From the NCBI RefSeq assembly GCF_009936045.1, contig NZ_QWEQ01000027.1, positions 1 to 45,077 on the forward strand: a DNA stretch of 45,077 bases, written 5' to 3'. The notes beneath the pieces are model-generated. The model did no database searches. It was not told the origin of the DNA and was given only the letters and a program-made list of their open reading frames with translations. The translations under genes were made by a program, and so were the position numbers. Below are positions 9,364 through 41,755 of the stretch, in pieces. The first letter of the stretch is position 1, and each line of letters starts with the position of its first letter. The DNA is from Emergencia sp. 1XD21-10 (lineage in GTDB: Bacteria > Bacillota > Clostridia > Peptostreptococcales > Anaerovoracaceae).

Positions 9364-9885
9364 ATGGAAGATAAGAAAACGAAGACTTTGGTTATGACAG
9401 CGTTGATGGCGGCAATTGTGTTTGTTGCTACATATCTGATTAAGATTCCAAATCCAGCAACTGGCGGATACAGTCACATGGGCGACTGTATGATTTTTCT
9501 GGCTGTTTTGATGTTAGGCAGGAAAAACGGTGCTATTGCAGCGGCTCTTGGCGGTGCGCTTTCAGATTTGCTTGCTGGTGCTGCAGTATGGATTTTACCA
9601 ACGCTGGTGATTAAATATATCATGGCTTATATCATGGGCACTGTGATAAAAAGCAATCCACAGGCTCACAAGCTGCAGTTAGCAGGCTCTATAATTGGTG
9701 GTATATTTCAGATTATCGCTTATACGCTTGTAAAGATAGTAATGCTTGGAATAGCGCCGGCTGTTGCATCGATACCTAATGTTACCATTCAGACGACTGT
9801 AGGCGTGGTGATTTTTATGGTGCTTTCTGGAGTACTATCCGGTAGAATTGTAAATTTGGCAGAGAGAGGAGATGCAGCAAAATGA
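9364..9885 (+). CDS. ECF transporter S-component (substrate-binding membrane protein)
   Basis: This 173-residue, strongly hydrophobic protein has five or six membrane segments and the ECF S-component pattern: a short basic N-terminus, MTALMAAIVFVATY, GGYSHMGD, then LGGALSDLL. S-components capture a vitamin or metabolite and pair with a shared EcfAAT energising module, which is not in the window. It resembles the riboflavin-transporter-like ECF group, but the substrate cannot be told. Start ATG 9364 follows AAGGGGG; the longer GTG 9304 frame would begin inside the promoter. Its last 4 bases overlap the next gene (ATGA), implying a functional link with that amidohydrolase. Confidence 0.75.
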   Translation: MEDKKTKTLVMTALMAAIVFVATYLIKIPNPATGGYSHMGDCMIFLAVLMLGRKNGAIAAALGGALSDLLAGAAVWILPTLVIKYIMAYIMGTVIKSNPQAHKLQLAGSIIGGIFQIIAYTLVKIVMLGIAPAVASIPNVTIQTTVGVVIFMVLSGVLSGRIVNLAERGDAAK

Positions 9886-10592
9886 AAATCATAGATGGGC
9901 ATGCGCATATCGGATATATTGGAGGCTGGGCAGACGTAGGTATTACAGGTGAGCAGCTCATCGCGCAGATGGATCGCTTCGGCATTGAGAAAACCGTTCT
10001 CTGTCACGAGGACAATGAGGTTACTTTGGATATGATGCGGAAATATCCGGGGCGTATTATAGGCGCAGTTTATGTGAATCCACTTAATCAGAGTACCGTG
10101 GATTCCATGGAAAACTATTTTGAAAAAGGGTTTAAGGCAGTCAAGCTAAACCCGCTGCGTCATGCTTATTGCGCGGACAGCGAGGCTCTGGATCCGGTCC
10201 TTCATAAAGCAGAAAAAGCCGGCATTCCTGTTTGCATTCACAGTGGTCATCCGCCTTATTCCTTGCCTTGGCAAATTGGGCTTCTGGCTGAGCGCCATCC
10301 TGATGTAAAGGTAATGATGATTCATATGGGACATGGTCATGGTGTTTATATTGACGCGGCACTGAAAATGGCACGTCGCTATCCGAATCTTTTTCTGGAA
10401 ATGAGCGGAATGCCGATGCCGTCAAAAATACGTGAAGCTTATGAGACTGTTGGCAATGACAGAATTATGTTTGGTACAGACACACCTTTTCATGATCCAT
10501 CGGTGGAACTGCAGAAGGTGCTTGTCAGTGGCGTAGATGAGACAGGCATTAGAAGAATCCTTTATGATAATGCAGCGGCGTTTTTTGCATAA
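9882..10592 (+). CDS. Metal-dependent amidohydrolase (amidohydrolase_2 type)
   Basis: This is a 236-residue TIM-barrel hydrolase. Metal-ligand candidates are H7 and H9 (DGHAHIG), H120 (CIHSGH), H148 (IHMGHGHG) and D200 (FGTDTPFHDP), the order expected for the PF04909 family of hydrolases and decarboxylases. The substrate is unknown. Translational coupling to an ECF S-component (ATGA overlap) suggests that it may process the compound brought in by that transporter, which is inference only. It is shorter than typical family members (about 280-330 residues). Confidence 0.75.
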   Translation: MKIIDGHAHIGYIGGWADVGITGEQLIAQMDRFGIEKTVLCHEDNEVTLDMMRKYPGRIIGAVYVNPLNQSTVDSMENYFEKGFKAVKLNPLRHAYCADSEALDPVLHKAEKAGIPVCIHSGHPPYSLPWQIGLLAERHPDVKVMMIHMGHGHGVYIDAALKMARRYPNLFLEMSGMPMPSKIREAYETVGNDRIMFGTDTPFHDPSVELQKVLVSGVDETGIRRILYDNAAAFFA

Positions 10593-19995: not shown

Positions 19996-20047
19996 GAAAT
20001 TAATTTAGGGAAAAGATTTGGCGGTGAATTCTGAAAGGAGAAAGGAT

Positions 20048-20587
20048 ATGAACCCGATTGAAACCAAAGATTTAATCATACGCGACAGCGTTTTTGAGGA
20101 TTTAAAGTATTTTGACCCATGGGAAAGGCAGCCTGCAGTAACGGAGTTTTTCAGCATTGCGGACGGGCAGAGTCTGGAGGATGTGACCAAGGCATATGTG
20201 AAATTTGATGAGGCTGCCGATATGCGCCAGTACACTATTTGTCTGCGCGAGAGCGGTGAGCCGGTGGGAAGAATTATTCTTGGCGATATCATAGAAGGCT
20301 GGAAGTGTGAAATTTGGCGGATTTACATTGCGGACACGGCACTTCGCGGCAAAGGCTACGGCAGACAGGCTATGGAAGCGACCATGAAACTGTGCTTTGA
20401 GGATTTTGGGATGAAACGGGTATATCTGGATCATTACACGGGAAATCCAGCGGCGCACCTGTATCTGAATCTGGGATTTCAGTACGAGGGCGTGCTGCGA
20501 AAGAACTGCCGGAAGAACGGCGTCCTCTATGATGTGCACCTGATGTCCATGCTGGCGGAGGAGTATTTTAGAAATAAGAACTTATAA
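20048..20587 (+). CDS. GNAT acetyltransferase, RimJ/RimL-like (copy 1 of 3)
   Basis: This 179-residue acetyl-CoA-dependent N-acetyltransferase is of the RimJ/RimL type. The acetyl-CoA-binding loop is RGKGYG (100-105), followed by the family's DHYTGNPAA and LYLNLGFQYEGVLR region (128-151). The substrate is unknown; relatives modify ribosomal protein N-termini, sugars or antibiotics. ATG 20048 is preceded by AAGGAG; a longer GTG frame (20018) lacks a site. It has its own promoter and terminator. A near-identical copy lies at 26778 (seven substitutions plus a different last five residues) and a 3' remnant at 34113. Confidence 0.85.
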   Translation: MNPIETKDLIIRDSVFEDLKYFDPWERQPAVTEFFSIADGQSLEDVTKAYVKFDEAADMRQYTICLRESGEPVGRIILGDIIEGWKCEIWRIYIADTALRGKGYGRQAMEATMKLCFEDFGMKRVYLDHYTGNPAAHLYLNLGFQYEGVLRKNCRKNGVLYDVHLMSMLAEEYFRNKNL

Positions 20588-26649: not shown

Positions 26650-26776
26650 GGAAAAGAAAAATACAGGATGTAAGATAGCGTTTCTCTTTGGTGCCGGAGC
26701 GGAAGGAAATTATGATATGCCCGCAGGGATGGAGTATTTGATTAAGAGTGCACTGTCTCAACAAAAGGAAAATTGA
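26648..26776 (+). pseudogene. Truncated FGAGAE-type ORF (possible SIR2-like fragment)
   Basis: A 42-codon frame begins MEKKNTGCKIAFLFGAGAEG and continues NYDMPAGMEYLIKSAL before ending in TGA one base ahead of the second GNAT start. The FLFGAGAE followed by MP-G pattern resembles the nucleotide-binding N-terminus of SIR2-like and related proteins often found in defence loci. The rest of such a protein is absent. It looks like an N-terminal stump left by a deletion that joined it to the GNAT copy. The family call is tentative; the truncation is clear only if that call is right. Confidence 0.4.
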
Positions 26777-26777
26777 T

Positions 26778-27317
26778 ATGAACCCGATTGAAACCAAGGA
26801 CTTAATCATACGCGACAGCGTTTTTGAGGATTTAAAGTATTTTGACCCATGGGAAAGGCAGCCTGCAGTAACGGAGTTTTTCAGCATTGCTGATGGGCAA
26901 AGCTTTGAAGATGTGACCAAGGCTTATGTGAAGTTTGATGAAGTAGAGGATATGCGCCAGTACACTATTTGTCTGCGCAAGAGCGGTGAGCCGGTGGGAA
27001 GAATTATTCTTGGCGATATCATAGAAGGCTGGAAGTGTGAAATCTGGCGGATTTACATTGCGGATACGGCGCTTCGTGGAAAAGGCTACGGAAGGCAGGC
27101 GATGGAAGCGGCTATGAAGCTGTGCTTTGAGGAGTTTGGCATGAAGCGGGTTTATCTGGATCATTATACGGGAAATCCAGCGGCGCTTCTGTATCTGAAT
27201 CTGGGATTTCAGTACGAGGGCGTGCTGAGAAAGAATTGCAGGAAGAATGGAGTGCTTTACGACGTGCATCTGATGTCCATGCTGGCAGAGGAATACTTTG
27301 AGCGATATGGTAAATGA
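26778..27317 (+). CDS. GNAT acetyltransferase, RimJ/RimL-like (copy 2 of 3)
   Basis: It has 179 residues and differs from copy 1 at positions 43, 56, 57, 68, 112, 119 and 137 and in the last five residues (ERYGK instead of RNKNL). The acetyl-CoA loop RGKGYG is intact, so it should be active. At the DNA level the similarity is patchy: the first 110 bp and 26950-27065 are almost identical to copy 1, while the stretch near 26895-26945 carries many changes, as expected from partial gene conversion. There is no promoter like that of copy 1; the upstream sequence is unrelated debris, and the ribosome site is AAAAGGA at 26763-26769. Confidence 0.82.
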   Translation: MNPIETKDLIIRDSVFEDLKYFDPWERQPAVTEFFSIADGQSFEDVTKAYVKFDEVEDMRQYTICLRKSGEPVGRIILGDIIEGWKCEIWRIYIADTALRGKGYGRQAMEAAMKLCFEEFGMKRVYLDHYTGNPAALLYLNLGFQYEGVLRKNCRKNGVLYDVHLMSMLAEEYFERYGK

Positions 27318-27543: not shown

Positions 27544-27710
27544 ATAAGTGGAGTTTGACAGGTTTACGGCGTTTCCTTTTGTACACTCTTCAAGAGATTT
27601 TTCCGTCAGTCTGAGAACGGTTTCTGATGTTGACAAAAATAAAAGAATCACGAATATTTGTCACATTTCTTTTTTCATGCCTTTGCCCTGTTTGAAGACA
27701 TGCAAAAGTC

Positions 27711-27738
27711 TTGCATTTTCGCTCAAATTGTGTATAAT
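27711..27738 (+). promoter_or_regulatory. Promoter of the cobalamin riboswitch transcript
   Basis: A perfect TATAAT lies at 27733-27738, with TTGCAT 16 bp upstream. The start would be near 27745, just before the aptamer. Confidence 0.6.
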
Positions 27739-27752
27739 GATATATGAAAATT

Positions 27753-27916
27753 GAAAAGAGCTTGCCAGTACCCGAAAGGGTTTAAAGGAAAACAGGTGAA
27801 ATTCCTGTACGCCGCCAACGCTGTAACAGAGGAGTCTTCTTCACGATGTCACTGGGAAACCGGGAAGGCGAAGAAAGATGCTGATACTGGAGTCAGAACA
27901 CCAGCTGGGGAGCAGC
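27753..27916 (+). promoter_or_regulatory. Cobalamin (B12) riboswitch aptamer
   Basis: The B12-box layout is present in order: AAAGGAAAACAGGTGAAATT with CCTGTACGCCGCCAACGCTG (27784-27822, the GGTGAAA-TCC and CGC-ACTG-like core), then TCACTGGGAAACCGGGAAGG (27849-27868), then the receptor-like tail AGTCAGAACACCAGC (27891-27905). Spacing and order match the AdoCbl-type riboswitch class, including the conserved ACTGGG...CCGGGAAGGCG arm. The edges are approximate. A terminator with a T run follows directly, so B12 should switch off the downstream permease by premature termination. Confidence 0.88.
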
Positions 27917-27919
27917 GCA

Positions 27920-27974
27920 AACGCATTGGAGAGATATGATGCGAAAGTATCTCTGCCGGATGCGTTATTTTTTT
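27920..27974 (+). terminator. Riboswitch expression-platform terminator
   Basis: Outer stem AACGCAT/ATGCGTT (27920-27926 with 27960-27966) and inner stem AGAGATA/TATCTCT (27930-27936 with 27948-27954) are followed by seven T at 27968-27974. It lies between the cobalamin aptamer and the GGAGGG of the permease gene, as expected for transcriptional control. Confidence 0.85.
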
Positions 27975-27989
27975 ATATGGAGGGCACTA

Positions 27990-29297
27990 ATGAAAAAACT
28001 ATTTAAACTGGAAGAAAATCACACCACTGTCAGACAGGAAGTACGCGCCGGTCTGACAACCTTTTTTGCCATGGCGTATATCATTTTTCTGAACCCGGTA
28101 TTTCTGTCATCTACAGGCATGAGTTCCGGCGGCGTTATGGTTGCTACATGTCTTTCTGCCGCAGCAGGCACGCTGCTGTGTGCATTTTTGAGCAATAAGC
28201 CTTTTGCGATGGCGCCGGGTATGGGGATGAATGCCTTTTTTGCGTATACCCTATGCGGAATTTACGGATATTCATGGCAGCAGGCGCTGGCACTTACCTT
28301 CCTTTCCGGAATCCTATTTTTTCTAATTGTTATCTCGCCTCTGAGAGATAAGATAATCAATGCAGTACCTGTAAATCTGAAATACGCTATAAGCGCCGGC
28401 GTGGGTCTGTTTATAGCGCTCATTGGTCTTCTGGATACAGGGATTATATCTTTAGCAAGCGGAATGCCTGCTCTCGGGGATCTCAGTTCGCCTACAGTTC
28501 TGATTGCATTGCTTGGAGTGGCAATCACAGCTGTTTTGGTGGTATTGAACATAAATGGAAGTTTGATTATCGGTATGGTGATAACGATTGTACTGAGTCT
28601 GGCGGCAGGACAGACAGCGATGCCCGACCACCTTGCAGAGTTTCCGGGCGCAATAGCGGACGTGGCTTTTAAGCTTGATTTTTCCGGATTGATTTCAGGA
28701 AAAGCGGGCTTGTCCGGTATCCTGTCACTTATTGCGCTTATTATCTCATTGACCATGGTTGATATGTTTGATACCCTTGGTTTTTTAATCGGCACCAGCT
28801 CCAGGGCGGGAATGACTGATGAAAAGGGAACCATGCCGGGAAGCGGGTCGATTTTAATTGCTGATGCGGCAGGTTCTGTGATGGGCGCTTTATTTGGAAC
28901 CTCTACCGTTACATGCTATGCGGAATCGGTTTCCGGGATTGCGGCAGGCGGAAAAACCGGTCTGACTGCTGTAACAACTGCTTTGTGCTTCTTGCTGGCG
29001 GTTGTGTTCTCGCCTCTGACAGGGGTGATGACAAGTGCTGTAACTGCACCGGCTTTGATTATCGTGGGAATGTATCTTCTCATGGAAGTGAAAAAAGTTG
29101 ATTTTGGTCGTCTGGATGACGCCATTCCTGCATTTATTACCATAGTGGCGATGCCTATGACATACTCCATTACGACAGGAATTGCTGCGGGATTTATTTT
29201 TTATCTGATTTGCAAAATTGCCGCTGGCAGAAGAAATGAGGTGAATCTGCCTGTTGTGGCGCTGGCTATGGTATTTTTTCTTTATTTCTGCCTGTAA
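27990..29297 (+). CDS. AzgA/NCS2-type nucleobase permease under B12 riboswitch control
   Basis: This 435-residue membrane protein has 12 or more helices and the AzgA signature: VRQEVRAGLTTFFAMAYIIF, LNPVFL, PFAMAPGMGMNAFFAY, then FDTLGFLIGTSSRAGM and GTSTVTCYAESVSGIAAGGKTG. Known relatives carry adenine, guanine and hypoxanthine by proton symport. ATG 27990 is preceded by GGAGGG; an upstream ATG at 27936 lies inside the terminator hairpin. The only visible regulation is a cobalamin riboswitch, not a purine riboswitch. That suggests a role in supplying a cobalamin-related base such as adenine or a benzimidazole lower ligand, which is inference. It converges with the XRE gene, 3 bp apart. Confidence 0.85.
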   Translation: MKKLFKLEENHTTVRQEVRAGLTTFFAMAYIIFLNPVFLSSTGMSSGGVMVATCLSAAAGTLLCAFLSNKPFAMAPGMGMNAFFAYTLCGIYGYSWQQALALTFLSGILFFLIVISPLRDKIINAVPVNLKYAISAGVGLFIALIGLLDTGIISLASGMPALGDLSSPTVLIALLGVAITAVLVVLNINGSLIIGMVITIVLSLAAGQTAMPDHLAEFPGAIADVAFKLDFSGLISGKAGLSGILSLIALIISLTMVDMFDTLGFLIGTSSRAGMTDEKGTMPGSGSILIADAAGSVMGALFGTSTVTCYAESVSGIAAGGKTGLTAVTTALCFLLAVVFSPLTGVMTSAVTAPALIIVGMYLLMEVKKVDFGRLDDAIPAFITIVAMPMTYSITTGIAAGFIFYLICKIAAGRRNEVNLPVVALAMVFFLYFCL

Positions 29298-29299
29298 AA

Positions 29300-29317
29300 T
29301 TTAGGTTTGCAGTATTT
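29300..29317. repeat. 18-bp direct repeat, right copy
   Basis: This copy is identical to 25865-25882. It overlaps the last codons and stop codon of the XRE regulator gene on the minus strand (ILQT-stop). Confidence 0.6.
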
Positions 29318-30002
29318 TGAATATATGCCTTTTCTTTAGCTGGTTCAATTCATCACGTGTTGGAGCTGTGAGTGCAGTGGCTTCGGTGAGGTCGGTAAGA
29401 GGATTCTCGGTAGCGATACATTTGCTGACAAAGGAATCGTATCGACCAAGGGAAAGACTGCAGAACAGACCAACGATAATTGAAGATGTACCAAAATTGC
29501 TGGTAAGATCCAGAACCAGCAAATCATTTTTATTTGCAGTATTTGCGAGGAAAATCCTCTGGGATGAATCGAAAGTCTGCACTGTTCCTGTGTAATAATA
29601 GGTGCACTTAGCAAAATCGGTGGGGTCGACTACACGCCCATAAAAGGAAGCTTTTTCTTGATTTATGGTCAAGATGTTGACCTCTTTGTTTTTTTTCTGT
29701 ATGAGAGAGGGTACGTACACATAATAGATTTTTCCTGGTTGTGAAGAACCGGGTGTTTCTTGTGATAAATTCTCAGTTGGAAGTAAATAGTCCATGTCAA
29801 GAAGCTGTGAAATATGAACATCAAGATTCTTTGCAATAATAATGAGTGTTTCCACATCAATTGATACTTCTCCACGCTCATATTTTGAAAGGGAAGATTT
29901 ACTTTTGTTAATGAGTAGAGCAAATTCTGCCAAACTGTAATGTTTTTGTTTCCTGTAGTGACGAATGCGCTGACCAAGTATACTGCGTATTGTTTCTTCC
30001 AT
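29301..30002 (-). CDS. XRE-family transcriptional regulator
   Basis: The protein has 233 residues. An N-terminal XRE helix-turn-helix spans about residues 10-68 (LGQRIRHYRKQKHYSLAEFA, SKSSLSKYERGEVSIDVETL). The roughly 150-residue C-terminal part is unrecognised and may sense a ligand. ATG 30002 follows GGAGG on the minus strand; the 241-residue frame start at 30026 lacks a site. It diverges from the MFS / amidohydrolase / symporter operon and is its most likely regulator. A GCATA-N3-TATGC palindrome lies between its own -35 and -10, suggesting autoregulation. Confidence 0.85.
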   Translation of the reverse strand: MEETIRSILGQRIRHYRKQKHYSLAEFALLINKSKSSLSKYERGEVSIDVETLIIIAKNLDVHISQLLDMDYLLPTENLSQETPGSSQPGKIYYVYVPSLIQKKNKEVNILTINQEKASFYGRVVDPTDFAKCTYYYTGTVQTFDSSQRIFLANTANKNDLLVLDLTSNFGTSSIIVGLFCSLSLGRYDSFVSKCIATENPLTDLTEATALTAPTRDELNQLKKRHIFKILQT

Positions 30003-30076
30003 GCTGTACCTCCGCAAAGATTTCATATAATTGCTTTTTTCTCTGAAATAAAGTAAAACTTGTAAAGTTTTTTATT

Positions 30077-30106
30077 AGTATAGCATATTTTATGCAAAAA
30101 ATCCAA
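30077..30106 (-). promoter_or_regulatory. XRE gene promoter with internal palindromic operator
   Basis: On the minus strand, TTGGAT (30106-30101), 18 bp and TATACT (30082-30077) with an upstream TG form a promoter. The spacer holds GCATATTTTATGC (30083-30095), a 5-3-5 inverted repeat placed where a bound repressor would block RNA polymerase. Confidence 0.55.
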
Positions 30107-30157
30107 TGTCGTTGGAAAAAAGTGCAGAAAATAGTCGTAGAATGAAAATACCGTTTT

Positions 30158-30186
30158 TTGAAAAGGAAAAGGAAGTTCTTTATAAT
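30158..30186 (+). promoter_or_regulatory. Sigma-A promoter of the MFS operon, TTGAAA-N17-TATAAT
   Basis: Near-consensus TTGAAA (30158-30163) and perfect TATAAT (30181-30186) are 17 bp apart, about 30 bp before the MFS start. The match is strong enough that repression, perhaps by the divergent XRE protein, is the likely mode of control. Confidence 0.8.
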
Positions 30187-30217
30187 GATAGAAAATTTAT
30201 TATAAGGAGTGATTATT

Positions 30218-31453
30218 TTGAAAGATCGAAGAAAGTATTTCATTGTGTTTTTATTGACCCTGTCTACTTTGTGCTATAATTTGCCCTATTTAAGTTCGAC
30301 TTTTTATACGCAATTTTTGGAGGCATTTCATTTATCTAATCAGCAGGCGGGGATGCTACTGACGATGTTTTCTTTTACAGCAACGCCGGGATATCTGCTG
30401 GGTGGTATTTTAGCAGATAGATTTTCACCGAAGAAGCTGGTTGTAATTTCACAGCTTTTGACAGCAGGTCTGGGCATCCTTATGACCTTTGCACCTAACT
30501 ACTTGGTGTTAATTGGCTGCTATTTGGGATTCGGCGTATCGACAACCTTCATTCACTGGTCGGCATATTTGAAATTGGTTCGTGCACAGGCAGATGAAAA
30601 CGAAGAAGGAAAGATGTTTGGATTCTTTGAAATGTGTGCAGCAATTGTAGGTGCAATTATGAGTTACGGTGTGCTGGCGGCACTGTCACAGTTTGCAGAA
30701 AGCATGGGATTCAGATATGTAACGACAATTTTTGCCGTTGTAATTGCGATTGTGGCTATTTTAATTATGGTGCTGGTGAAGGATGTAAAGGGCTTAGAGT
30801 CTAACGATGATTTCAAGTTTTCTATGCTTGGAAGAGCGCTGGCGCATCCGGTGACCTGGTTGAACGGGTTTATTGTTATGGGGTTGTTTATTGTGATCTC
30901 TGGTGCAACATATCTCAACCCGTTTTTATCTGGCTTGTTCGGTGTATCTGTGACTTTCAGTACAGCTTTTGCAATTGCAAATCGTTCGGTGGTAAGAATC
31001 ATCCTCTCGCCGCTGGGAGGGCTTCTTCTGGATAAGTGCCGCACGCCTAAATTCTTGATTCTGGTTTGTATCGCTATAGGTATTACGATTGTGGGTCTGC
31101 TGTTTGTTCCGCATCAGGAATCCAGCAAAACAATTGCGGTGATTTTGAGTATTGTACTTATCAGTGTAATTGCGCTGAGCCGTTCCGGCCTATATACTCC
31201 GATTCCTGAAGCGAAGGTTCCTTTTGAAATTACCGGAACTTCTATGGGGATTGCTTCAGCAGTAGGCTATTCAACTGACCTGTGGCTGTATAATTTATGT
31301 GGAAAATGGCTGGATACAAAAGGCGCAGATGGATATAACAACATTTTTATTTTGCTGATAGTTGGTCTTGGAATTGTAGTGGTTTGTGCAGTGTTGCTGC
31401 ATTTATATGAAAAGAAAAATCACTGCTTTGAATCTGAGCGGGCAGTGATGTAA
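30218..31453 (+). CDS. MFS transporter
   Basis: This 411-residue protein has 12 predicted helices and the MFS loop motif GGILADRFSPKK between helices 2 and 3. The substrate is unknown. The start is set at TTG 30218, eight bases after AAGGAG; the in-frame GTG 30209 overlaps that site. It is first in an operon with an amidohydrolase (20 bp downstream) and a sodium:solute symporter, so it probably imports the amidohydrolase substrate or exports its product. Confidence 0.82.
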   Translation: MKDRRKYFIVFLLTLSTLCYNLPYLSSTFYTQFLEAFHLSNQQAGMLLTMFSFTATPGYLLGGILADRFSPKKLVVISQLLTAGLGILMTFAPNYLVLIGCYLGFGVSTTFIHWSAYLKLVRAQADENEEGKMFGFFEMCAAIVGAIMSYGVLAALSQFAESMGFRYVTTIFAVVIAIVAILIMVLVKDVKGLESNDDFKFSMLGRALAHPVTWLNGFIVMGLFIVISGATYLNPFLSGLFGVSVTFSTAFAIANRSVVRIILSPLGGLLLDKCRTPKFLILVCIAIGITIVGLLFVPHQESSKTIAVILSIVLISVIALSRSGLYTPIPEAKVPFEITGTSMGIASAVGYSTDLWLYNLCGKWLDTKGADGYNNIFILLIVGLGIVVVCAVLLHLYEKKNHCFESERAVM

Positions 31454-31473
31454 AGATTTGGAGGGAATGTAAT

Positions 31474-32679
31474 ATGAAAACTTTAGTTTTGAAAAATTGC
31501 AGACTGATTCCCTATTTGACTGAGGGATTTGTGGTTCAAGAAAATCAACTGGCAGATGTTGTGATTGAAGACAAGAGAATTAAGACGATTCTTCCGGCGG
31601 GAACTGCCTTTGAGGGGGATGTTGACATACTGGATGTCAAAGGAGATACTCTCATGCCGGGTATGTTGGATTTACATATGCATTTTGATTTTACAACGAT
31701 GGACGTTTTGCAGATTAAATATCGCAGTGCGGTAAAAGAACTAGTGGAAGGAATTGAATATGGCTTTGATTATCTGCGCAGCGGTTATACTACGGTTAGG
31801 GACTGTGGCTCTGCATTTAATCTGGGCGTAACGCTGCGTGACATGTATGCTAAGGGAACTATCATGGGTCCGCGTGTGATTGCTTCCGGCCATTGTAACA
31901 CCCCGACTGCACCGGGCAATGCAGAATTCGGACCACTTTATAAAGTGTTTGACGATGTGGCTGACGCAAGAAAAATTGTGAGAGAAGATATTGAAGCTGG
32001 CTGTGATTTTGTCAAATATATGGCAACTGGTGCAGTTATGAACATCGGTGGGGATCCTGGAGCTATGATCTGCTCTTTTGAAGAACTGAAGGCACTTTCC
32101 GATGCGGCGAAAGAACAGGGAACTTATGTAGCGGCTCATTGTCATGGAAAAAAGGGCATTATGGCATGTGCGGAGGCAGAAATAGGCAGTATTGAGCATG
32201 CTTCCTACATTGATGATGCGTGTATCGAGACATTATTAGCGCATGGAAACCAGACTTTCATCGTTCCAACTGTGGAAATTGCATATTCCATGTTGAAGGA
32301 TTTGACGGGAAATACGCCTGCGTTCATGCATGAACGTTCTATAGAAATCATGGAGCATATTTCGGAGTATATGACAAAAGCCTATCGCGCCGGAATTAGG
32401 CTTGGTTGGGGTACGGATGCAGACAGAGTTACTTTTAATGAATTCCCTGGGTTGGAATTTATTGCCAGAAAGGCGGCGGGATTTTCTAACGAAGAGCTAC
32501 TGAAGATGGCGACGGTGGACAGTGCAGCTCTTGTAGGACTGCAGGAGAGTATTGGAACCGTAAAAGAAGGCAAATTGGCTGACTTAATCGTAATGGAAGG
32601 TGAGCCTGATATAAATATTGAGGACATGAAAAAACTACCCAAATATGTATTTAAGGAAGGTAAATTGTTTGTCGAGTAA
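31474..32679 (+). CDS. Amidohydrolase of the imidazolonepropionase/prolidase-like group
   Basis: This 401-residue binuclear-metal amidohydrolase has ligand candidates H68 and H70 (LDLHMHFD), K181 (FVKYMATGA, the likely carboxylated lysine), H222 (AAHCHG), H242 (IEHAS) and D315 (GWGTDADR). The full set fits the COG1228 group, which includes Xaa-Arg/Lys carboxypeptidase-like and prolidase-like enzymes acting on N-acyl amino acids and dipeptides. The substrate is not predictable. GGAGGGAATGTAAT precedes ATG 31474. The adjoining MFS and SSS transporters suggest a small peptide or N-substituted amino acid scavenging unit. Confidence 0.8.
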   Translation: MKTLVLKNCRLIPYLTEGFVVQENQLADVVIEDKRIKTILPAGTAFEGDVDILDVKGDTLMPGMLDLHMHFDFTTMDVLQIKYRSAVKELVEGIEYGFDYLRSGYTTVRDCGSAFNLGVTLRDMYAKGTIMGPRVIASGHCNTPTAPGNAEFGPLYKVFDDVADARKIVREDIEAGCDFVKYMATGAVMNIGGDPGAMICSFEELKALSDAAKEQGTYVAAHCHGKKGIMACAEAEIGSIEHASYIDDACIETLLAHGNQTFIVPTVEIAYSMLKDLTGNTPAFMHERSIEIMEHISEYMTKAYRAGIRLGWGTDADRVTFNEFPGLEFIARKAAGFSNEELLKMATVDSAALVGLQESIGTVKEGKLADLIVMEGEPDINIEDMKKLPKYVFKEGKLFVE

Positions 32680-32694
32680 AGAAGGCTGTGTAGA

Positions 32695-34092
32695 ATGATG
32701 AAGACGATAGACTATATTTTTATGGCTCTGCTACTTGCAGCTGTTTTAATTGTTGGTCACTGCTCCAATCGCAAACTTTCGGATTCAAGTGATTTTCTGA
32801 CGATGAATAAAGGCTTGAATAAGCTGCAAACCGGACTGTCTATGGCGGCGACGGATTTTGGCGGGAGCGGACTGGTTGGCGCAGTAGGGTACTGCTATCT
32901 GATGGGGATGGGCGGCATGTGGTGGAACCTTGCCGCTGCGCCAGGATTCTTACTGATAGGCTTTGTTTTGGCGAAAAGGCTCAACGGTTTGAACGGACTT
33001 ACTGTACCGGATTATTTGGGTAAACGATATGGATTGAGCGTAAAGTACATTACCAGTGTAATGCACATCTGTGCGTCTGTTGCTGCACTGTCGACACAGT
33101 TTACGGTTTCATCTGTAATGCTTAACACGTTGACTGGTTTAGACGTGCGAATTACACTGGTAATCGGAATGCTTATTACATTGTTTTTGACTAGCGGGGG
33201 TTTGAGAACTGTTGTTAATACAGACATTTTGCTGTTCTTTGTTATGGTGGCGGCTGTTTTTACGGCAGTACCTGTGACAATCAGTGCAGGTGGAGGCCTT
33301 GGAGAAATAACGAGGAGTTTGCCGGAAGGATTTATGTCGATCGGCAGTATAGGCATATGGACGCCGTTGTCCTGGGGGATTTTGTTTGGCATCTCTTATG
33401 GGACCAATCAGAATTATATACAACGAATTGTATCTGCAAAAGACGGCAGTACGGCAAGATTTGGGATGCTGTTTACTGCAGGATTTTATGTTGTGGTTTC
33501 GGCAGCAACGGGGTTAATTGGTGTAAGCGCTGTGTCGCTTCTTCCAGAGATAACAGACTCGAATATGGTGTTTTCGACGCTTCTTGTTAAAGTGCTGCCT
33601 GCAGGCTTTGCGGGGATTGCAGTTGCTGGTGTTTTCGCGGCGACGATTTCGACCAGTACTTCGGTATTGCATGCGGTTACAGTGCTTAGTGTAAGTGATG
33701 TTCTGATGCCGATCGTGGAAAAGAGAGAAATAGAGCTGAGTGACGTGAAACTATCGAGGGTTACGACAGTTGTTATAGCGCTGATAAGTCTTGCTATTTC
33801 GTTGGCTTTTGATAATATCATTGCGGTGCTATATACATCCGGTTTATTTTACAGTTCGGCAGTTTTCCTTCCGATGCTCTTGGGATTGTACACGGATTGG
33901 GCGACGAAGAAAGCGGCGATTGCCAGTGTGGCAGGCTCAATCATTTGCGGACTTGCATGGGAGTTTTTTGTCTTAGGCAAGGTGTCGATTCTTGGAAAAA
34001 TTCCATCGGTTTTAGTTAGCTTAGCTGTCAGTGGAATTTTGCTGTATGGTGTTTCGATGGTCTCAAAGGATAAGGCGTCGATAAGCAAGTAA
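32695..34092 (+). CDS. Sodium:solute symporter (SSS family)
   Basis: This 465-residue membrane protein has about 13 helices. It shows the SSS features SDSSDFLTMNKGLNKLQTGL near the N-terminus, GLSMAATDFGGSGLVGAVGY, and GVFAATISTSTSVLH in the region of the sodium-site helix 8. SSS members import sugars, proline, pantothenate or other organic acids with sodium; the substrate is unknown here. ATG 32695 is doubled (ATGATG), and only a weak AGAAGG lies upstream, suggesting coupling with the amidohydrolase gene that ends 15 bp before. Its stop lies 20 bp before the GNAT remnant, so its downstream neighbour was probably replaced by recombination. Confidence 0.85.
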   Translation: MMKTIDYIFMALLLAAVLIVGHCSNRKLSDSSDFLTMNKGLNKLQTGLSMAATDFGGSGLVGAVGYCYLMGMGGMWWNLAAAPGFLLIGFVLAKRLNGLNGLTVPDYLGKRYGLSVKYITSVMHICASVAALSTQFTVSSVMLNTLTGLDVRITLVIGMLITLFLTSGGLRTVVNTDILLFFVMVAAVFTAVPVTISAGGGLGEITRSLPEGFMSIGSIGIWTPLSWGILFGISYGTNQNYIQRIVSAKDGSTARFGMLFTAGFYVVVSAATGLIGVSAVSLLPEITDSNMVFSTLLVKVLPAGFAGIAVAGVFAATISTSTSVLHAVTVLSVSDVLMPIVEKREIELSDVKLSRVTTVVIALISLAISLAFDNIIAVLYTSGLFYSSAVFLPMLLGLYTDWATKKAAIASVAGSIICGLAWEFFVLGKVSILGKIPSVLVSLAVSGILLYGVSMVSKDKASISK

Positions 34093-36093: not shown

Positions 36094-37122
36094 ATGTGTA
36101 GCAGAACTATGACAAAAACAGAACGCGTCAAAGCGGCAGTCAACTTTCAAGAAGTAGATAGAATTCCTTTGGGGCTCTGGCCACATCACACGGATGTGGA
36201 TCAGGACTATGTGAAACTGGCCGATAAACAGTTTGCCTTTTACAGAGAAACAGATATTGATTTTGTAAAGCTGATGCCTTTTGGACTTTACACGGTAGAA
36301 GATTACGGATGTAAAATTGAAAAAATATGCCAGCCGGATCAGTGGCCACGAATCGTAGAAGCGTTTATAGAGACGCCGGAGGACTGGGAAAAAATCGTGC
36401 CTCTTGACGTGACAAAGGGCACCTACGGCAATCAGCTGAAATATGCGGAAAGAATGCTGCAGCTTATGAAAGAACACCAGGATGAGGCGCCGGTGATTCA
36501 CACCATTTTCAGTCCAATCACTACATTGTACAAGCTGTTGGGCGAAAAGAAACTCTTTGAGGAAATCGAAGCGCATCCGACACTGGTGCATCGTGCGCTG
36601 GAGCAGGTTACGGAAACTACAATTGCCTTTGTAAACGAAAACATCAAACTTGGCGTCAGCGGGTTTTTCTTTGCAAGTCAGCTTGCAAACTACAGATTTA
36701 TGACGGACGAAATGTATGATGTATTTGGTGAGCAGTATGATTTGAAAGTCATCGGTGCATATGCAGACCGAACCTGGTTCAACGTAATTCACGTACATAG
36801 CTTTACACAGGAAAAAGAGAAGTCCATGTTTGAAAGACTTGCAAACTACCCGGGCACCTGTCTCAACTGGCATGACAGATGGGTGGGACCGAGTTTGGCA
36901 GAGGCTAGAAAATACACGGACAAATGTCTGATTGGAGGCATTAATGAAGAGCAGTATTTCAACAAAACTAGCTATCAAAACGTATATGGACATATTCGCG
37001 AGGCAGTAGAAATGGCAGGCAGAACTGGATTCATGCTGGGACCGGGGTGTACCATCTACGAGGATACACCACTTGAAAATTACCTGGCTGCGAGAATTGC
37101 GGCAACCAAGTACGGTAAATAA
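36094..37122 (+). CDS. Uroporphyrinogen decarboxylase-like putative methyltransferase
   Basis: This 342-residue protein has the UroD fold (PF01208). It is not HemE: the N-terminal porphyrin-binding RQAGRY motif is absent, replaced by [13 protein letters not shown]. It resembles the MtaA/MtbA/CmuA group, which transfers methyl groups using zinc held by His-x-Cys and a later Cys. Here the site reads HVH (233-235) with C319 in LGPGCTI, a His-x-His variant. No corrinoid protein gene is nearby. GGAGGG precedes ATG 36094, 12 bp after the transporter. In context it may demethylate or dealkylate an imported thio- or amino compound; this is inference. Confidence 0.72.
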
Positions 37123-41338: not shown

Positions 41339-41755
41339 ATGCCTACTATTAACCAATTAGTACGTCAGGGCAGAACCAGTTCTGTTAAGAAGTCAACCGC
41401 TCCTGCTCTCGGTAAGGGTATGAACTCTTTAAGAAGAGTAGCAACTAACACCAACTCACCACAGAAGAGAGGCGTGTGCACTTCAGTTAAGACTGTAACC
41501 CCTAAGAAGCCGAATTCCGCTCTTAGAAAGGTTGCCAGAGTACGTCTGTCCAACGGTATCGAAGTAACCGCTTATATTCCTGGTATCGGTCACAACCTGC
41601 AGGAACACAGCGTAGTGCTGATTAGAGGCGGAAGAGTTAAGGACCTCCCAGGTGTGCGTTATCACATCATCAGAGGTACACTGGACACTGCCGGCGTAAA
41701 CAACAGAAATCAGGCTCGTTCCAAGTACGGTGCTAAGAGACCTAAGAAGAAATAA
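41339..41755 (+). CDS. rpsL: 30S ribosomal protein S12
   Basis: Ribosomal protein S12 (138 residues) sits at the decoding centre. The streptomycin-relevant loop [11 protein letters not shown] is of wild-type sequence, as is the later [10 protein letters not shown] loop, so streptomycin sensitivity is predicted from this gene. AAAGGAG precedes ATG 41339. It is the first gene of the str operon but is separated from rpsG by 456 bp, much more than usual. Confidence 0.98.

Follow-up and report, generated by a model that had tools for sequence, protein, structure and literature searches.

Why would a permease of a purine-carrying family stand under the control of a vitamin B12 riboswitch? The question is raised by a short transcription unit of Emergencia sp. 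1XD21-10, lying within the 45,077-nucleotide stretch of DNA that we analyzed (hereafter the window). An earlier note, based on the letters of this DNA alone, had described a promoter, a cobalamin aptamer, a terminator with seven T and a lone AzgA/NCS2 permease, and our searches confirmed this observation. The aptamer extends over positions 27749-27923 of the forward strand and matches the cobalamin riboswitch model RF00174 in full length (model positions 1-189 of 189). With a score of 69.4 bits (E-value 3.4e-15), compared to a gathering score of 31.5, it passes the covariance check that the note had proposed. It is also the sole Rfam match in the window at the gathering threshold, and the Rfam scan returned no purine riboswitch (RF00167) in the window. 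The permease, a protein of 435 amino acids encoded at 27990-29297 on the forward strand, matches PF00860 with 115 bits (cut-off 27). Its best relatives of solved structure are AZG1 (8irl, E-value 8.4e-62) and AZG2, both in the PDB, and it has no NCBIfam family match. On these matches, the protein can be assigned to the NCS2/AzgA-like permeases. Since the next gene (29301-30026) lies on the opposite strand, the permease appears to be the sole gene of its unit.

By reading the sequence upstream of the aptamer, we recognized two promoter-like boxes on the forward strand, TTGCAT (27711-27716) and TATAAT (27733-27738), separated by a 16-nt spacer. TATAAT is invariant in the three species compared below. 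The boxes are absent from the output of a consensus promoter scan because TTGCAT agrees at only three of six positions. At the other end of the aptamer lies a terminator-like hairpin (27920-27966, forward strand), with a seven-T tract at 27968-27974. The hairpin has a predicted energy of -20.7 kcal/mol and a z-score of -4.25, and none of 200 shuffled sequences was equally stable. It was missed by a terminator scan because its predicted loop of 9 nt exceeds the limit of 8 nt used by the scan. A ribosome binding site, also read from the sequence (GGAGGG, 27979-27984, forward strand) and invariant in the three species, precedes the ATG start codon of the permease at 27990. A longer open reading frame from 27936 would have its start within the hairpin.

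An aptamer followed by a hairpin with a U tract is usually read as a device by which cobalamin halts transcription. The predicted direction is the same for this leader, with B12 likely turning the permease gene off. In the predicted fold, the terminator is able to form next to a largely folded aptamer. Cobalamin riboswitches also feature a kissing loop between L5 and L13, or a switching partner in the expression platform. No clear partner for L5 was found downstream of the aptamer, the longest exact L5 complement being 4 nt. Nor was a clear antiterminator found among the predicted helices of the leader; an alternative 7-bp hairpin in the helix list (CGCAUUG/UGAUGCG, 27922-27943, forward strand), which has its 5' arm in common with the terminator, may be a candidate for this role. 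We also considered a damaged aptamer, as L5 has an A where two relatives have a C, and ruled it out because A is common at this position in other riboswitches of the genus.

The closest relatives of the protein come from an Emergencia MAG (locus L020, 95% identical) and an 'Eubacterium' MAG (L021, 91%), and in both of them the riboswitch is present upstream of the permease. Among the window, L020 and L021, identity reaches 94-96% in the aptamer, 96.5-98.2% in the terminator region (27920-27976) and 100% in the stretch of the ribosome binding site. The whole stretch from promoter to start codon is 79-85% identical, whereas the upstream flank (27640-27715) is only 34-47% identical. The aptamer and hairpin are thus 94-98% identical against a diverged flank, and the permease genes have a dS of 0.60-0.85 with a dN/dS of 0.04-0.06. 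Purifying selection seems to act on all three, the aptamer, the hairpin and the protein.

Downstream of the permease, the window carries a gene block (29301-34092) with members of the HTH, MFS, amidohydrolase and SSF symporter types. In L020 this block lies upstream of the permease, and the 11.6 kb of L021 that we examined did not reveal it. An rpsL-like gene directly follows the permease in both L020 and L021 and starts at 41339 in the window. A URO-D-type gene of the window (36094-37122) is weakly similar to MtaA-type corrinoid methyltransferases, below cut-offs, and is possibly corrinoid-linked. Two GNAT acetyltransferase genes (20018-20587 and 26748-27317) are identical at 167 of 179 residues after the first ten, within a duplicated stretch of 536 bp that has 90.5% DNA identity.

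Within the genus, the permease occurs in three of 13 genomes, or in three of the eight with a completeness of 90% or more and a contamination of 5% or less. All other matches in the genus are at most 46% identical, save a 53-residue fragment at 57%. The genus scan took 19 of the 20 loci outside the genome of the window, leaving out fragment L076, and neither cobalamin nor purine riboswitches were found at 17 other genus loci and at the paralogue on contig C17. A sample of the class gave permease matches at E ≤ 1e-105 in 38 of 391 genomes, and the best of those from outside the genus is 57% identical. This sample yielded 40 matches, of which 29 besides that of the window were fetched and scanned, and 10 were left out. 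The Rfam scan detected a cobalamin riboswitch before none of these 29 relatives and a purine riboswitch upstream of four; at locus L091, a guanidine-I match just above threshold overlaps the purine riboswitch. In the set of closest relatives, for which 31 of 36 loci were scanned (L050, L051 and L053-L055 were left out), two loci have a cobalamin riboswitch, namely L020 and L021, and one has a purine riboswitch. The sets of 31 and 29 loci share some records. Most scanned relatives have no Rfam element upstream. Among those outside the genus, none has a cobalamin riboswitch and five carry purine riboswitches. The view of the earlier note that NCS2 permeases are usually under purine control thus holds for some relatives (1/31 and 4/29 in the overlapping sets) but not for most of them.

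We compared 61 genomes of the family by eye on the coordinates of their PF00860 and RF00174 matches, the latter listed to about E 2.4e-10. Among the matches listed, the two adjoin only in the window, and the next nearest are at least 7 kb apart. Neither the scans nor the matches listed for these 61 genomes revealed a wider set of NCS2 genes under B12 control. In what was sampled, the pairing of riboswitch and permease is confined to one lineage. The protein tree was built from an 80-row alignment that leaves out partial loci as well as L057 and L058, which are copies of L020 and L021; 10 near-duplicate or partial rows were then removed. In this tree, the three proteins under B12 control group together (100/100), and L022/L079 is their sister. 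Their branch is long and far from the other AzgA copies of the genus, and relatives with purine riboswitches sit in nearby branches.

The residues around the predicted substrate pocket bear on what the permease may carry. According to excerpts of a study on AzgA (PMC11527162), N131, D339 and E394 are direct contacts, D342 is a translocation residue, G129 and V393 are among the docking contacts, and F335 is a stacking residue. We matched residues to AzgA by spacing, AzgA itself being absent from the alignment. The permease keeps G79, N81, D258, D261 and E312 (AzgA G129, N131, D339, D342 and E394, respectively) and is changed at L254 (AzgA F335) and A311 (AzgA V393). It also has F at 265 and C at 309, two positions where T is usual in relatives. 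All five relatives with purine riboswitches have F254, V or I at 311, T265 and T309. An aromatic residue is missing at 254 not only in the B12-controlled clade, since L254 occurs in 23 of 75 other relatives; A311 occurs in three of 75. The sister L022/L079, which has no riboswitch, differs there too (S254, F265 and S311), and so changes in the pocket do not go hand in hand with the riboswitch. Retention of N81, D258, D261 and E312 favors a base-like substrate, and the changed pocket suggests a different base. We propose, tentatively and at somewhat below an even chance, that an AzgA permease has been re-tuned to benzimidazoles or modified purines through loss of the stacking F and of the bulky residue beside the key glutamate.

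The genome carries eight cobalamin riboswitches, including the one in the window, and five of the other seven precede genes that resemble CbiR or genes for making corrin or for taking up cobalt or corrinoids. These genes, named mostly by eye and partly with NCBIfam, are an unnamed 361-aa protein followed by a CbiK-type chelatase (254 bits, cut-off 400), a cbiD-type operon, a CbiM-type protein, an ECF-like transporter whose first gene has no NCBIfam match, and a CbiR-like enzyme (L014:16112-16879; best match CbiR, 42.4 bits, cut-off 105). No tie to B12 could be made for the remaining two targets, a 986-aa secreted-looking protein without NCBIfam match (L016:537-3497, riboswitch of 104 bits) and a radical SAM protein (L017:8222-9592, riboswitch at 9727-9918 on the reverse strand, 69 bits), whose best match, NirJ2, is far under its cut-off. 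The 986-aa protein is possibly a surface corrinoid binder. CbiR-like genes of the AP-endonuclease-2 type lie behind a strong cobalamin riboswitch in five genomes of the genus (L014, L108, L113, L117 and L122), four of them matched by eye only. Since the copy of the present genome reaches 42 bits against a cut-off of 105, it may be a divergent remodelling branch.

The other 12 genomes of the genus have 70 B12 riboswitch matches elsewhere than before the permease, including four that score under the family cut-off, and we read 34 of the 70. By eye, their nameable first genes are of the same kinds or encode a BtuF-like binding protein; none of the 34 has an NCS2 permease as first gene, and several first genes are without name. 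A B12-supply role of most regulon neighbours is supported by resemblance.

On contig C28, the genome has one cobT match above cut-off (378 bits), grouped with a cobU-like gene (68 bits, cut-off 161), a cobS-like gene (82 bits, cut-off 110), both named after their best matches, and a gene that looks cobC-like by eye. The RF00174 search of the genome placed no B12 riboswitch on cobT. BluB was not found above cut-off (best 63 bits compared to 150), and neither was a BzaB-type ThiC, the single ThiC-family match being the canonical ThiC (649 bits; 499 bits with the BzaB model, cut-off 700). The genome searched is 98.7% complete. CobT is present with no first-step benzimidazole gene detected in the BluB and ThiC/BzaB searches, as would suit a genome that imports its lower ligand. 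The earlier note had pointed to co-occurrence with cobT and cobS and no bza genes, and in this genome the combination is supported as far as the first-step genes searched, with cobS represented by the cobS-like gene below its cut-off. With corrin genes, cobT and the cobS-like and cobU-like genes, this genome probably has the means to make corrin and to join a base to it.

Taken together, we infer that the permease is repressed by B12 and imports a base used as lower ligand of cobamides, a reading that we consider about evenly balanced between right and wrong. The leader RNA would sense cobalamin-type cofactors and, at high supply, stop transcription. At low supply, the AzgA-type nucleobase symporter would be made and would import a flat nitrogen base (a benzimidazole, adenine or a modified purine) to serve as lower ligand. 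CobT would then activate the base and CobS would attach it to a corrin, which may be made de novo or stripped from cobamides by the CbiR-like enzyme. The lower-ligand substrate was an inference of the earlier note, and it gains some added support from the regulon and weaker support from the pocket residues. Against it, the permease does not track CobT across genomes: cobT is present in all 13 genomes of the genus and the permease in three, which makes the co-occurrence that the note had suggested a weak one. In addition, the other NCS2 loci that were tested do not lie by cob genes, as no homologue of nine cob/cbi proteins of this genome was found near them. The lack of the riboswitch in scanned relatives outside the genus and before cobT itself also speaks against this reading. 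In excerpts of a study on Salmonella, about 2-3 mM DMB arrests growth (PMC10468695), which suggests that such bases can enter at high dose without a dedicated importer.

The main rival of lower-ligand import is purine uptake under B12 scarcity, which we regard as unlikely. Shortage of B12 would switch on a normal purine importer and the riboswitch would act as an alarm for nucleotide need, the rationale being that low B12 stalls methionine synthase and, through the methyl-folate trap, slows purine synthesis. The trap has been demonstrated in bacteria, but thymine abolishes sulfa-induced death according to the same source, as excerpted (PMC5070874). The protein does belong to a purine family (PF00860, AZG1/AZG2), it retains the charged and polar contact residues and it has purine-riboswitch relatives in nearby branches, although L254 and A311 are changes at two residues matching reported purine contacts. 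This rival also gains from the genome having no purine riboswitch match at E ≤ 0.001, with 150 of 316 first-look candidates scored. However, other NCS2 genes are present, two full ones on C19, the AzgA paralogue on C17 and a broken copy on C59, and ordinary base uptake may therefore be served elsewhere by those on C19 and C17. Moreover, the nameable regulon neighbours appear to supply B12 instead of repairing its loss. The broken AzgA-type copy lies in pieces at about 4937-6117 of L019 (C59); amidohydrolase and MFS genes located within a few kb of it are ~35% identical to those of the window.

A little less probable again is that the permease carries no lower-ligand base but a different corrinoid precursor, or else a compound from a pathway that depends on B12. 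The long branch and the altered pocket residues would agree with such a cargo, as would the several further B12-controlled genes that look like uptake genes, but the retained N81, D258, D261 and E312 argue for a base-like substrate. We consider it improbable that the gene simply landed behind a B12 riboswitch with little adaptive meaning, or that B12 turns it on. The restriction of the pairing to one lineage among the sampled genomes and the lack of a clear antiterminator point this way, yet the leader is strongly conserved at a dS of up to 0.85, with a dN/dS of 0.04-0.06 in the gene. Nor is the aptamer a recent copy of another riboswitch, which we ruled out because the nearest of the 41 others that were compared, 34 from the genus and seven from its own genome, is 61.5% identical to it.

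Importer of a lower-ligand base or not, the unit shares parts with several known systems. Its aptamer family is that of the RF00174 regulons described by Sun et al. 2013 (PMC3766115), where transporters of B12 and its precursors are established targets. Excerpts of that paper name B12 synthesis, transport of B12 and precursors, cobalt transport and isozymes, but not a nucleobase-type permease, and the word 'permease' is absent from its main text. The AzgA-like NCS2 proteins (A. nidulans AzgA, Arabidopsis AZG1/AZG2, E. coli PurP/YicO/YjcD/YgfQ) are of the same family and, by spacing, have the same charged and polar contacts. However, they have a purine riboswitch or no Rfam element upstream, whereas here there is a B12 riboswitch and the equivalents of F335 and V393 are L and A. 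Salvage of alpha-ribazole by CblT/CblS likewise brings a lower-ligand precursor from outside, in the form of an activated base as the excerpted text has it (PMC6461909), whereas the permease would carry the free base. Remodelling of cobamides by CbiR (PMC7733943, in excerpts) has a possible counterpart in the CbiR-like gene under a B12 riboswitch in this genome, but CbiR is an enzyme and not a transporter, and the CbiR-like score stays under the NCBIfam cut-off. Among the titles and abstract openings listed from the open-licence PMC literature, none deals with an NCS2 or purine permease under a cobalamin riboswitch.

In the excerpted parts of Shelton et al. (PMC6461909), 42% of predicted cobamide producers are without known genes for benzimidazole synthesis or phenolic attachment. 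Purinyl cobamides may be the product of such bacteria, and uptake of lower ligands from the environment by bacteria is reported as well; no transporter for a free lower-ligand base was seen named in these parts. The NCS2 permease under B12 riboswitch control offers a concrete and testable candidate for this transporter, and its Emergencia-like hosts would allow the cobamide that they make to be measured. If the proposal of a re-tuned AzgA permease is true, which we place somewhat below an even chance, the protein would be a transporter dedicated to a free lower-ligand base of cobamides and repressed by B12. It would then account for the import step lacking so far in cobamide producers without genes for lower-ligand synthesis.
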